64,000 nucleotides of DNA from Coleofasciculus sp. FACHB-1120 (GTDB lineage Bacteria; Cyanobacteriota; Cyanobacteriia; Cyanobacteriales; FACHB-T130): NCBI RefSeq assembly GCF_014698845.1, contig NZ_JACJTV010000004.1:62001-126000 (forward strand), in the 5' to 3' direction. Under the pieces are notes generated by a model. It had not been told where the DNA came from. It saw only the letters and a list, made by a program, of their open reading frames with translations, and made no database searches. Below are positions 20,289 to 24,441 of the stretch, in pieces (the stretch's first letter is position 1; the number at the start of each line of letters is the position of its first letter). The position numbers were made by a program, and so were the translations under genes.

Positions 20289-21788
20289 CTATATATCAAA
20301 TTTCCAGGTAGCTATCTTTTCCAGGTCTTCAAGCGACGATTGCCACTTCTCCACCAATCCCCCGCGCACGCTGCTTCTCACCCAAGGATGCAGATCGTAG
20401 CGTGGATTCCCTAGCTCATCTTGTACATCTTCAATCAAATACCATCGTCTCAGATCTGCCAGTGCTGCATCCAACTCTGAATCCAGCAATTCCCCAACTT
20501 GAGACAACTCAGCTCTATTAACCGTTGCATCCATCCCACCCATGTAACGCAGTACACTTTGTGCTGCCATATCGATTCGCTGCCATGCTGCCTCCAGACA
20601 GAAGCGGTAGAATGTTTCTACTTGTCGGCTGGCAAACTTTAATTCCGACAAAATTGGCTCAAGTGCTTGATCGTGGAATACCCGTCCAGCCAGAAAATGC
20701 AATGCTAAGGGTGCGCCGCGAGACAATTGATGCAGTTGATAGAGCTGTTCGTTGCTTGCCTGCTTGAGTATCGAAATGTTGTTGTACTTTGCCTCGTCCT
20801 CCAGCAATTTAGAAGACCATCTTGCCTCAAGTCCTGGGATTTCAATTAATCTCACATAGGGAGGTTTGGTGCGGTGTCGGCTAGTAATCAGTACCCGGCT
20901 GGGGTTAAGCATTTTGACAAGGTTCGCCAGAATCTCTTCAACTTGTGCAGTTTCGGCATTGTCCAAGACGACGAGTAGTTTTTCCGCTCTCAAACGCTGG
21001 TGAACTCGCTCAGGCGAGCAATCCAATTGATGGGCGATTTCATTTAAAAATTTCTTCCACGTCAGCGCCTCATCATGCTTGTCCTGGCTGATGTAACCAT
21101 CCACCCACTCGCTTTGCCTCGCTGTCACCCACACTACATCCGCGAACAGATTTCTATTGAGCGCTTCTTTGGCAATTTGGCTTGCAGCTTCGGATTTCCC
21201 ATACCCCGGACTGCCGCTGAGGGAAAAAATAGAGAGTTCAGCGGGATCGTCTAGACGGTTCAATACTTCTTGGATGAAGCTTTCTCGCCCCCACACCATC
21301 CGACAGCGAGGGTTGGGGATAAACAAGCCCTGATGGCGTTCTTTGTCTCGCTCTAGTGGCGCGTCGGCTGGGGCGTTGGGGGTTGCATTCTCCTCCCAGC
21401 ATCCGACAATAGGAGTGGAAGACAAGGTGTCTTGAGTAATGTCTTCCCCGATTGGACAGGACTTGCTGTCCTGAGAATTGTCTGGAGCATTCTTGGAAAA
21501 CTCGCTCCATTCATCATAGGAACAGTTCAATAACAGATGACATAAGCCATTGGCAATCCGATACTCGCAGGTTTGGCGGCTATCCGAGTTCAAAATCGCT
21601 TGTAAAGCTTGGCGAGAGGGTTCGAGCGTATTGAGTTGTTTCCGCCACGCACTCAAAAAGTCTTGCATTAGGGCACGTTTGCCTTCAGGCTTGTACTTTC
21701 TGTTGAATTCTTCGTGTAGCTTTTTCTTTAAGCTTGCGGGCAAGAAAACGTTACTGTTATCTCTTCTGAGGTCAAATCCACCAGCCAT
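20289..21788 (-). CDS. STAND (NB-ARC-like) ATPase, module 1
   Basis: A 499-residue signal-transduction ATPase. Residues 1-120 form a helical domain I do not recognise. The NTPase has Walker A G-S-P-G-Y-G-K-S (192-199), Walker B L-L-V-V-L-D (271-276) and the sensor R-V-L-I-T-S-R (298-304). It is followed by a helical/winged-helix region with G-A-P-L-A-L (NB-ARC GxP motif). There are no WD40, TPR or LRR repeats after the winged helix, so the usual sensor is missing or sits in another protein. It is divergent from a small-protein gene at 22015. STAND ATPases act as switches in regulation, cell death and phage defence; the role here is unknown. Confidence 0.78.
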   Translation of the reverse strand: MAGGFDLRRDNSNVFLPASLKKKLHEEFNRKYKPEGKRALMQDFLSAWRKQLNTLEPSRQALQAILNSDSRQTCEYRIANGLCHLLLNCSYDEWSEFSKNAPDNSQDSKSCPIGEDITQDTLSSTPIVGCWEENATPNAPADAPLERDKERHQGLFIPNPRCRMVWGRESFIQEVLNRLDDPAELSIFSLSGSPGYGKSEAASQIAKEALNRNLFADVVWVTARQSEWVDGYISQDKHDEALTWKKFLNEIAHQLDCSPERVHQRLRAEKLLVVLDNAETAQVEEILANLVKMLNPSRVLITSRHRTKPPYVRLIEIPGLEARWSSKLLEDEAKYNNISILKQASNEQLYQLHQLSRGAPLALHFLAGRVFHDQALEPILSELKFASRQVETFYRFCLEAAWQRIDMAAQSVLRYMGGMDATVNRAELSQVGELLDSELDAALADLRRWYLIEDVQDELGNPRYDLHPWVRSSVRGGLVEKWQSSLEDLEKIATWKFDI

Positions 21789-21878: not shown

Positions 21879-21922
21879 ACTTAGCTTTAAATTACTTTGA
21901 AATTACCTTATAATTGCTTTGT
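21879..21922. promoter_or_regulatory. Four 11-nt-phased direct repeats in divergent promoter region 1
   Basis: Four consecutive 11-mers ACTTAGCTTTA, AATTACTTTGA, AATTACCTTAT and AATTGCTTTGT share TTRSYTT at the same offset. They lie about 90 bases before the STAND start and about 93 before the small gene. An 11-nt direct-repeat period is typical of OmpR/PhoB-family operators, including the cyanobacterial Pho box. AT-rich chance similarity is possible. Confidence 0.4.
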
Positions 21923-22014: not shown

Positions 22015-22242
22015 ATGAAAAATAACCTCAGCAATATCCGCGAAGTTGTCCAACACGCCTTGAGTACAGGCTACCTAACTGTTGCAGCAGAAGAGCATCT
22101 ACGGGGACTTTTAACAACTAAGTATGGACTGGAAGACTTCAACGCTTTTATGCAATTGCAGCAAGCTGCGATGCTGGGTCAAGTAAGGCAAGAGTCTCGC
22201 GAAATCGCCCTTTCTCAGCGGCTTTCCTGTGGGAGTTTCTAG
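22015..22242 (+). CDS. Small helical protein, STAND-linked family (copy 1)
   Basis: 75 residues, no signal peptide or TM. It aligns without gaps with the product at 24250: about 38 of 56 residues from I-R-E to S-R-E are identical, including G-Y-L-T-V, A-E-E, K-Y and E-D-F-N-A-F-M. The pattern suggests three amphipathic helices. ATG 22015 gives the alignment's natural beginning. It is divergent from STAND gene 1 (226 bases apart). Real coding is strongly supported by the paralogue. Its role could be an antitoxin-like partner, adaptor or regulator of the ATPase; none is shown. Confidence 0.72.
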   Translation: MKNNLSNIREVVQHALSTGYLTVAAEEHLRGLLTTKYGLEDFNAFMQLQQAAMLGQVRQESREIALSQRLSCGSF

Positions 22243-22356: not shown

Positions 22357-23865
22357 TTAACCCGGTAAACTCAGACGACGGCTGGTTTCATATCTCCCAG
22401 ACGGAGCGTTAATTAGCCCCAAGCTTAATAAAAGAGCCACATCTTTGGTTGTCATTTCTTCACAAATCTGCTCAACTAATTTGTCAGCGAGATACGCCCT
22501 GACGACAGGCGGTAGGGTGAAATTACTCGAGGTTTTTTCAATAAGCGATCGCCGTCGCAAAGATTCCATTGCTTCTAGCTGCTGCCGCTTCGATACGCCT
22601 GGTACCCCCTCGTCTCGCAAGGAACGGATAGGAACTAACTTGTGACGAATTGCCAGCCAGTACATGACTTTTTTTTCTAAATCCGAGAGGCGGTTGAATT
22701 GCCGATCTAATAGGTCGCGAATATCCCCGAAAACAACCAGACCTTCTGCTAAAAAGTCGGTAATATTCCCATCAAAGACATCTTGAATCGTTGTTGCTAC
22801 GATTTTCAAGACTAATGGATTTCCCGCATAGCGGTTGATCAGGACTCTACATTCTTCGGCTGAGCCAACTAAACCTTTGAGTTGCAGTAACTCTTGCCCA
22901 TCGGATGCTGACATTCCCCTCAGTTCTAGGGAACGAATCGGTAAGTTTTCTCCTTCCAGGGATGCAATTTCTTTCGGTTTCTCCCGACTGGTGAGAACCA
23001 GGCAACTGGGATGGCGTTCTTCTCCCAGACGCCGGAACAGTTCCGCATATCCCTCATGTTCGGGACGATAGTAGCCCGCGTATTGGATCGGGGACAAAAT
23101 TTCCTCAGCTCGATCTAGGATGATCAGACAGCGGTGCGATCGCAGATAAGCCATCAGCAGGGAAATTCCCTCATCTGCGGTTGCGTCACCAATGATTTCC
23201 TGCCCTTGAGACAGAAATTGGAGCAAGCTTGCAACCAAATCTTGAACTGATGGAGCATGACGTAGCGATCGCCAAATGACAAACTCAAAATCTTGCTGAA
23301 TCTGTTCTGCTAGTTTCACAGCGAGAGCGGTTTTCCCGATTCCCCCCATCCCCAACAATGCCACTAAGCGGCAGCTGTCGTGGACAATCCACTGCTCTAA
23401 GGTTGCCAATTCTTCTTCGCAGCCGTAGAAAGCGGCTACATCAATCACTTCTTCCCAGTCTTGGTTCTCGATTGCCGTCCCGATCGCAGATGTCTCAGCT
23501 TGACTCTGTTCGGGTAAGTTAGCGGAATCTGTTTTATATCCAGCTTTTGAGAGCAAATTGGTGACGCGGCTCCAGTTCTTTATTTTGATTACGTCACCCG
23601 TCTGGCGAATCAGGAGTTCTTGAATGTATTTGTACAGCCCATTCGATAAATAAACTCTAACAGCACTGCTAGTGCGACTTTTGTAGACAGTATCTGCTAT
23701 TTCTGCTGGACTGTACCCACACAGCAATCCTCTTAAGAATTTCTTCTCAACAGGGGTCAGACCCCTTCCCTTGGCAGAAGCTAAATCTATGTATAGCTTT
23801 TCTAAATGCCAATTATTTGCCGCTTCTGTAAACTCGTCATCCTGCCGCTCAACAGTTGATGCCAT
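22357..23865 (-). CDS. STAND (NB-ARC) ATPase with N-terminal HTH, module 2
   Basis: A 502-residue protein. Residues about 20-90 form a LuxR-like or vMAP-type helix-turn-helix (L-T-P-V-E-K-K-F-L with Y-S-P-A-E-I-A). This domain is common at the front of cyanobacterial NB-ARC/WD40 proteins. The NB-ARC domain has Walker A G-M-G-G-I-G-K-T (172-179), Walker B C-L-I-I-L-D (246-251) and sensor C-L-V-L-T-S-R. The G-N-P-L-V-L motif and a winged helix ending near F-T-L-P-P-V-V-R-A-Y-L follow. As in module 1, no repeat sensor follows. It belongs to a different STAND subfamily from module 1, yet has the same kind of divergent small partner. Confidence 0.82.
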   Translation of the reverse strand: MASTVERQDDEFTEAANNWHLEKLYIDLASAKGRGLTPVEKKFLRGLLCGYSPAEIADTVYKSRTSSAVRVYLSNGLYKYIQELLIRQTGDVIKIKNWSRVTNLLSKAGYKTDSANLPEQSQAETSAIGTAIENQDWEEVIDVAAFYGCEEELATLEQWIVHDSCRLVALLGMGGIGKTALAVKLAEQIQQDFEFVIWRSLRHAPSVQDLVASLLQFLSQGQEIIGDATADEGISLLMAYLRSHRCLIILDRAEEILSPIQYAGYYRPEHEGYAELFRRLGEERHPSCLVLTSREKPKEIASLEGENLPIRSLELRGMSASDGQELLQLKGLVGSAEECRVLINRYAGNPLVLKIVATTIQDVFDGNITDFLAEGLVVFGDIRDLLDRQFNRLSDLEKKVMYWLAIRHKLVPIRSLRDEGVPGVSKRQQLEAMESLRRRSLIEKTSSNFTLPPVVRAYLADKLVEQICEEMTTKDVALLLSLGLINAPSGRYETSRRLSLPG

Positions 23866-23910
23866 TCCTTCGCATTGCTACCCCGATATAAAGGCTGTCA
23901 ACGGCTGATT

Positions 23911-23976
23911 CTAACGGATTAATTATGAAATCCTAACGAAGTTAGAGTGAAGTTCTAACGAATTTAATAACGCTTG
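23911..23976. promoter_or_regulatory. 22-nt (2 x 11) direct repeats upstream of STAND gene 2
   Basis: CTAACG recurs at 23911, 23933 and 23955, exactly 22 bases apart. The first two units also share TGAA at offset 15. On the minus strand, towards the ATPase, the same region reads as ACTTCACCTAA/ACTTCGTTAG-type 11-mers. A candidate tandem operator. Confidence 0.45.
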
Positions 23977-24024
23977 TTAGGTGAAGTTTTCTTAATATTT
24001 TGGCTATCCTTGAATTCTAGGAGA

Positions 24025-24057
24025 ACTTCATCTAACTTTCATCTAAATTTCATTATA
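24025..24057 (+). promoter_or_regulatory. Three perfect-phase 11-nt direct repeats upstream of the small genes
   Basis: ACTTCATCTAA, CTTTCATCTAA and ATTTCATTATA follow one another without gaps. The form (about 7 bases TTTCAT plus 4 AT-rich bases) is that of OmpR/PhoB-type operators. The motif matches, in opposite orientation, the repeats on the ATPase side. Confidence 0.5.
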
Positions 24058-24080
24058 TTTTTATAGTTTTTTTAGAGGAT

Positions 24081-24095: not shown

Positions 24096-24176
24096 ATGAT
24101 TTTACTAGGGTTTGACGGCATCTGCCTAGTGTGCGGCTTAATTATATTGCCTTGCCCGCAGAGCAGGCATCCGTAA
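24096..24176 (+). CDS. 26-residue hydrophobic Cys-containing peptide
   Basis: A very short frame directly behind the perfect Shine-Dalgarno. The product begins MILLGFDGICLVCG, has a hydrophobic core, Cys at 10, 13 and 20 (a C-x2-C pair), and ends P-Q-S-R-H-P. It could be a leader peptide controlling the downstream small gene (73 bases on), a membrane-active small toxin, or translated noise. It lies in the divergent region of STAND module 2. No homologue is known to me. Confidence 0.4.
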   Translation: MILLGFDGICLVCGLIILPCPQSRHP

Positions 24177-24249
24177 ATTGACTGACGTAATTTCCGCATT
24201 TTAAAACCCTATGGTTTCTCCTGCTGTTGATTGAGTTGATGAAAAATAT

Positions 24250-24441
24250 ATGATGCTAATCCGCGAACTTGTTGAACAAGCACTGAATATCGGATATTTG
24301 ACAGTTGAAGCTGAAGAGCAACTGCGACAGTTATTAAGAAAGAAGTATGACCACGAGGATTTTAATGCCTTCATGACCTTGCAGAAAGCCGCAATGGCAG
24401 GTCGTGTTAAGCAGCAATCGCGCGAACTGATGCGGTTATAA
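24250..24441 (+). CDS. Small helical protein, STAND-linked family (copy 2)
   Basis: 63 residues, paralogue of the product at 22015 with the shared G-Y-L-T-V-x-A-E-E and E-D-F-N-A-F-M cores. Basic and acidic residues alternate with hydrophobics in a helical pattern, with no membrane segment. There are ATGs at 24250 and 24253; the ribosome site is weak, unlike the strong one of the short frame upstream, which hints at coupling or regulation. It is divergent from STAND gene 2. Confidence 0.7.
   Translation: MMLIRELVEQALNIGYLTVEAEEQLRQLLRKKYDHEDFNAFMTLQKAAMAGRVKQQSRELMRL

Follow-up and report, generated by a model that had tools for sequence, protein, structure and literature searches.

What controls a pair of divergent genes, one encoding a STAND ATPase and the other a small protein, when the DNA between them carries two opposed sets of short, evenly spaced direct repeats? 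The pair lies in a 64-kb window (the whole stretch of DNA analysed) on contig C4 of the cyanobacterial genome G000, and the two genes are separated by 384 nt (Table 1). Domain searches matched the STAND product to NB-ARC (E 7.4e-12) and NACHT (E 2e-11). The small protein belongs to a family that was found in 38 of 60 relatives and in seven copies in its own genome, and for which searches gave no Pfam match at E 0.001 (marginal matches up to E 10) and no NCBIfam match at E 0.1. A second pair of like arrangement is present in the window, with a paralogous small gene at 22015–22242 (plus strand) before another STAND gene at 20289–21788 (minus strand).

Two further observations concern the genes themselves. 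In-frame stops occur inside the matched stretch of STAND orthologues L003 and L004 (genomes G002 and G005; three TAG each) and L169 (G215; one TAA). The first such stop leaves 469 and 482 aa, so the C-terminus of these orthologues is shorter or decayed. In the leader of the small-gene transcript, a possible ORF of 26 codons (MILLGF..., window 24096–24176) follows a strong GGAGG; it was rejected as a leader ORF, as its reading frame, inspected by eye, is lost in relatives.

Two opposed repeat arrays lie between the genes

The original prediction, that CTAACG recurs at exact 22-base steps and that three related 11-mers adjoin one another closer to the small gene, was borne out: CTAACG starts at 23911, 23933 and 23955, and ACTTCATCTAA, CTTTCATCTAA and ATTTCATTATA follow without a gap at 24025–24057. 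Among 3,000 dinucleotide shuffles of the 384-nt intergenic region, none had a 6-mer triple at a step of 11 or 22, and 3 had one at any constant step from 8 to 40; such repeats were therefore rare in shuffled sequence, where their frequent appearance would have spoken against the prediction. Lags 11 and 22 were prominent among lags 6–44 in the intergenic region, with a lag-11 score of 17/22 (equalled in 0 of 2,000 shuffles) and a lag-22 score of 27/44 (P 0.0005, 2,000 shuffles). Elsewhere in the 64-kb window, 6-mer triples were found at four further places (plus-strand letters, steps 8–40).

Each set had been proposed to face its own gene, and this held for the orientation of the small-gene array and for both direction and step on the STAND side. 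The proposal that the two sets are related in reverse complement stood only in part. An inverted repeat links 23976–23999 with 24013–24036 (79% complementary), and ACTTCACCTAA and ATTTCATAATT units are present on the minus strand, but TTCATCTAA is not the reverse complement of the CTAACG units (CGTTAG in the direction of the STAND gene), which instead alternate with TTCATCTAA-type units.

Table 1 Features of the divergent region and of the paralogous small gene, in window coordinates
Feature	Position	Strand	Basis or remark
STAND ATPase gene (NB-ARC/NACHT) with N-terminal helix-turn-helix (HTH)-like region	22357–23865	−	Domain and fold matches
STAND-side array: CGTTAG units at 22-nt steps, alternating with ACTTCA/ATTTCA-type units	23907–23987	−	Repeats, conservation
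Core of 26 nt, deeply conserved, ahead of the STAND gene: CCTAACAAGCGTTATTAAATTCGTTA	23956–23981	−	Orthologue alignment
Block lying between the arrays, conserved: GGATAGCCAA (in relatives GATAnCTAA)	24000–24009	−	71% identity in the same 10 orthologues as the core
Small-gene-side array: three 11-nt units ACTTCATCTAA CTTTCATCTAA ATTTCATTATA	24025–24057	+	Repeats, Pho-box matrix, conservation
Candidate −10 box TATATT, 9 nt past the 8+3+8 box at 24026–24044	24054–24059	+	By eye; putative
Small gene, 63 aa	24250–24441	+	Family without assigned function
Second Pho-box-like 11-nt array CTTTAAATTAC TTTGAAATTAC CTTATAATTGC, upstream of the paralogous small gene	21885–21914	+	Pho matrix rank 8 of 127,942

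The 11-nt step is kept in orthologous regions

We compared 27 orthologues of the STAND gene in which the N-terminal region is present (from L001–L010, L169–L184 and L186; L011–L030, L185 and L187–L189 were omitted). A divergent small gene lies alongside 23 of them, and these represent five families, the members of which are related within each. Across the 23 intergenic regions the mean z was 3.19 at lag 11 and 2.29 at lag 22, with the next best of the 24 lags at 0.90; averaged by family, the values were 2.82 and 2.51, with the next at 1.02. Direct repeats of about 11 nt, as sought for an OmpR/PhoB-family array, were thus found in the mean of the 23 regions and individually in 16 of them, where 11 or 22 was the top lag. 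Neither lag was on top in the remaining seven (L009, L176, L177, L179, L180, L181 and L184), which include all three regions of family f17. The alignment of relatives that had been suggested as a check therefore showed the repeat step kept in orthologous regions. The letters of family f32 depart considerably from those of the window, but the 11-nt step is retained (for example, ACTTCATGAAA AGTTCATGAAA AATTTATGAAT in L171), which argues that the 11-nt period is under selection.

A scan of named genomes yielded 11 relatives at 41–51% identity, none of them matching from the N-terminus, and these were not added. The search for genes with a like N-terminal HTH yielded 28 upstream regions, all already among the loci set aside as orthologues, leaving no arrays of STAND paralogues to compare.

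The small-gene array resembles a Pho box

We built a Pho-box matrix from published boxes of the cyanobacterial regulator SphR (PMC1906773 Table 1; 27 of 30 rows, with three PCC7942 rows omitted, the boxes of which are those of PCC6301). Applied as three 8-mers with 3-nt linkers, it placed 24026–24055 third among 127,942 window positions, and the L003 and L004 counterpart of the array before the paralogous small gene scored 22.2, above the median of 18.1 for the known boxes. Towards the small gene, a box spacing of 3 gave a mean z of 1.55 versus at most 0.50 for spacings 0–2 and 4–6 in the 23 regions, and 0.94 versus at most 0.42 for other spacings in 53 small-gene upstream regions, a preference that may partly restate the 11-nt period. 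The matrix alone reached P ≤ 0.05 towards the small gene in 9 of the 23 regions, in three of which (L008, L171 and L173) the best match lies off the array. Boxes of 8 bp with 3-bp linkers were accordingly found on the small-gene side, most strongly in family f1 and weakly in f17 and f33.

An 11-mer model, seeded with the window and fitted to those same 23 regions, returned the unit ACTT(C/T)ATNNAA, with scores of 22 to 31 in f1, f14 and f32 versus 9 to 17 in f17 and f33. When the model was applied to 44 small-gene upstream regions outside its fit, 11 had P ≤ 0.05 (2.2 expected) and three had P ≤ 0.01. A search of genome G000 with TTCATCTAANTTTCATCTAA at up to three mismatches gave six matches, two of them at this locus, versus two control matches, and no regulon was seen.

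The E. coli PhoB box has the 11-nt half-site CTGTCATAWAW; the TTCAT-NN-AA of our array is like its TGTCAT-A-AA, and a two-unit match has 6 mismatches in 22, with only three window positions as good, but here T or C stands in place of the G in TGTCA and there are three units. The HLR1 element of RpaB consists of two (G/T)TTACA(T/A)(T/A) units. Its likeness to our arrays lies in direct repeats containing GTTA, and RpaB is encoded in the genome (L205, above its model's cut-off), whereas two consensus units were not found on either side: the two-unit consensus has at least 4 mismatches, with 5 on the STAND side, a fit equalled at 761 window positions, and 4 on the small-gene side, equalled at 149.

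Compared with the cyanobacterial SphR boxes as presented in PMC1906773, the small-gene array is alike in its tandem 8-bp boxes with 3-bp linkers (an 11-nt period), its direction towards the gene and its high score; it is unlike them in its consensus (TTCATCTAA rather than CTTAACCT) and in preceding a gene without a known phosphate role, and the STAND side does not fit. According to that paper, PhoB-family regulators bind 8-bp boxes with linkers of 3 bp, and some 10 bp separate these from the −10 box downstream; the gap of 9 nt before the TATATT at our locus is close to this distance. A promoter scan returned four sigma-70-like pairs versus 1.3 ± 1.1 in shuffles, with this candidate −10 box not among them; one pair overlaps the STAND array (minus strand, 23951–23922) and another the start of the small gene (24227–24254). 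Our literature search for cyanobacterial Pho boxes together with direct repeats of 11 bp found no paper combining all these terms, and the TAACTGA heptamer repeats described in PMC4679880 are a different element.

Conservation on the STAND side centres on a distinct core

With the Pho matrix, the STAND side ranked 24th in the window and had a mean z of 0.55 in orthologues. The small-side 11-mer model gave z values of 2.2 to 3.4 there (three 11-nt steps, four f1 regions) and 0.4 in G018; the half-sites are modest, and a pair step of 20 scored equal to 22. At L175, which is outside the model fit and has no small gene alongside in the stretch examined, ACTTCATGTTA ACTTCACAGAA run towards the STAND gene (0 of 500 shuffles), and the opposite strand also gave P 0.014. 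Among other STAND upstream regions, L169 had P 0.028, and L183 and L010 gave no signal.

The most conserved part of the STAND side is a different element, the 26-nt core, which is not Pho-box-like. Its mean identity is 85% in 10 orthologues (f14, f33 and f17) versus 43% over the 300 nt aligned, and 15 of its 26 columns are identical in all 10; the figures for both core and block exclude f32 (seven regions) and L176. At up to two mismatches the core occurs in 6 of 60 genomes, every match lying just upstream of a STAND orthologue. Relaxing the search to three mismatches gave 12 matches versus 18 control matches in the 60 genomes, which is at noise level and defines no regulon. CTAACG-N16-CTAACG at up to two mismatches gave 236 matches versus 1,177 control matches, with only two exact ones, both at this locus.

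What might bind the two arrays

Our leading reading, held with moderate confidence, is that the region is a divergent promoter in which the small-gene array is bound by an OmpR/PhoB-family regulator and the STAND array by the same or a related one, together with a second factor at the core. Each gene would have its own array of half-sites phased at 11 nt and read in the direction of that gene. On the small-gene array, the binder would most likely be a winged-helix response regulator of the OmpR/PhoB family, arranged as tandem head-to-tail monomers of about 11 bp each. Bound just upstream of the putative −10 box, it would take over the role of a −35 box in recruiting RNA polymerase, and so act as an activator, not a repressor. 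On the STAND side, the ACTTCA/ATTTCA units, which are weaker, would probably be read by the same or a related regulator, and the core by the separate factor. On this reading the element would be of a known and fairly ordinary kind, a divergent promoter with tandem sites for a response regulator. Regulators of the required family are encoded in the genome: 16 loci exceed the cut-off for the OmpR/PhoB DNA-binding domain (PF00486), and among the 10 of these run against NCBIfam the assignments were RpaB, NblR, two RppA and one PhoB-like protein below its model's cut-off. The OmpR/PhoB-type binding that the original prediction had assigned to both arrays is thus supported on the small-gene side by the repeats, the matrix rank, the preferred spacing, the kept step and these loci. 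It fares less well on the STAND side, with its low matrix rank, inconsistent signal in orthologues, modest half-sites, equally good step of 20 and a core of another kind.

A narrower possibility is a true SphR Pho box at the small-gene array, with both genes in the phosphate-starvation regulon. The ranks and scores obtained with the SphR matrix, including those at the paralogous small gene, would suit this, as would a PhoB-like regulator (L200; best match TIGR02154, E 2.8e-72, below the model's cut-off) whose gene lies about 8 kb away from a PstS-like one. However, ahead of the best PstS-like gene (L217) the Pho-box match reads CTTAACCT/GATTACCA/GCTTACCT, to which the small-side 11-mer model gives 1.9 at most, whereas the window array has TTCATCTAA; this comparison covers a single PstS-like locus out of four, and the remaining three gave no clear match in the direction of the gene. 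Because the pst match has a different consensus, a relative of SphR appears likelier than SphR itself, the small-gene array is probably not an SphR site, and we regard membership in the phosphate regulon as improbable. We give very little credence to the idea that the inverted arrangement of 23976–23999 with 24013–24036 forms an RNA hairpin or cruciform to which the direct repeats are incidental. Its arms are 24 nt long, and 6 of 36 predicted pairs show two-sided change in five aligned regions, yet the covariation term is unfavourable (+2.76 kcal/mol), many pairs are broken, Rfam returned no family above its gathering score (one sub-threshold, chance-like match), and the promoter scan contained no terminator-like site. 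Inverted repeats arise in any case from opposed arrays of like units.

The STAND protein could instead bind its own promoter in the manner of MalT, its N-terminal HTH reading the core and the 22-nt CGTTAG repeats and its ATPase assembling on the array, regulating both itself and the small gene. MalT also has a STAND ATPase, and at our locus such an ATPase, whose core matches MalT (8bob_C, Z 14.3), is encoded beside direct-repeat arrays in a divergent promoter region; the HTH, C-terminal in MalT, is N-terminal here, and DNA binding by it is putative. The core is kept upstream of STAND orthologues that have the HTH, its matches at up to two mismatches all fall before such genes, column identity averages 67% over the highly conserved HTH region (A3), and the N-terminus weakly resembles LuxR-type regulators (3clo, E 0.019; 4zmr, Foldseek probability 0.95 but E 0.24), with no Pfam match for residues 1–112. 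Against this, the HTH match is weak, the N-terminal model is of moderate quality (pLDDT 69.6), and the ATPase core is closer to apoptosome and resistosome ATPases (Z up to 24.6) than to MalT. The core, moreover, defines no regulon at three mismatches, G018 has the STAND orthologue without a core match, L169 and L175 have the HTH without any such core discernible by eye, and 11-nt arrays also occur upstream of small genes that lack a STAND partner. We therefore consider self-regulation of this kind unlikely. It is likewise doubtful that this NLR/apoptosome-like ATPase acts through its N-terminal HTH as a self-regulating DNA-binding switch, which would oligomerise on the core and the 11/22-nt array in its own divergent promoter and control itself and its small partner.

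RTCAC arrays before small genes

Small-gene upstream regions also yielded arrays of another kind. Three or more RTCAC units occur in 13 of 53 such regions, and from one unit to the next the step is 22 or 23 nt in 42 of 47 cases, a spacing that was not imposed. The pattern TCACN{17,18}RTCACN{17,18}RTCAC, with overlapping matches counted, had 343 matches in the 60 genomes (34 of which have it) versus 28 for the reversed control. Of 80 arrays collected with the RTCAC pattern, 43 start with a CRP-like GTGA-N6-TCAC, and in 27 a −10-like ATAYT follows at a distance of 27 nt, counted from the start of the final TCAC. They are dispersed across G000–G059, mostly before small genes of about 60–90 aa (for example, L132, L137, L141, L146, L043, L046 and L047), and lay inside long reading frames in 3 of 44 cases examined. 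The genes that follow recur across genomes and encode small proteins with the pattern ...ADRYGLMAALLD...EE...DRLL...GRL..V.E.S, short ones that end in SQGAGTR, and a PAS-containing protein (L130, L132, L133, L141, L150, L152, L154, L160 and others). The regulator of these arrays is possibly a CRP/FNR protein with extra half-sites. PMC2633013 gives the cyanobacterial CRP site as TGTGAN6TCACA; from its main text the terms 'tandem', 'half-site' and 'direct repeat' are all absent.

Implications

Were the STAND protein the binder, an apoptosome-like ATPase would, unusually, be serving as a transcription factor, and a self-regulating switch would link STAND assembly directly to transcription. The observations connect a small, so far undescribed cyanobacterial protein family with an NLR-like STAND gene through a shared regulatory region that has two sides and is kept over several families, and the short consensus ACTTYATNNAA at 11-nt steps, together with the 26-nt core, offers handles for finding the regulator.
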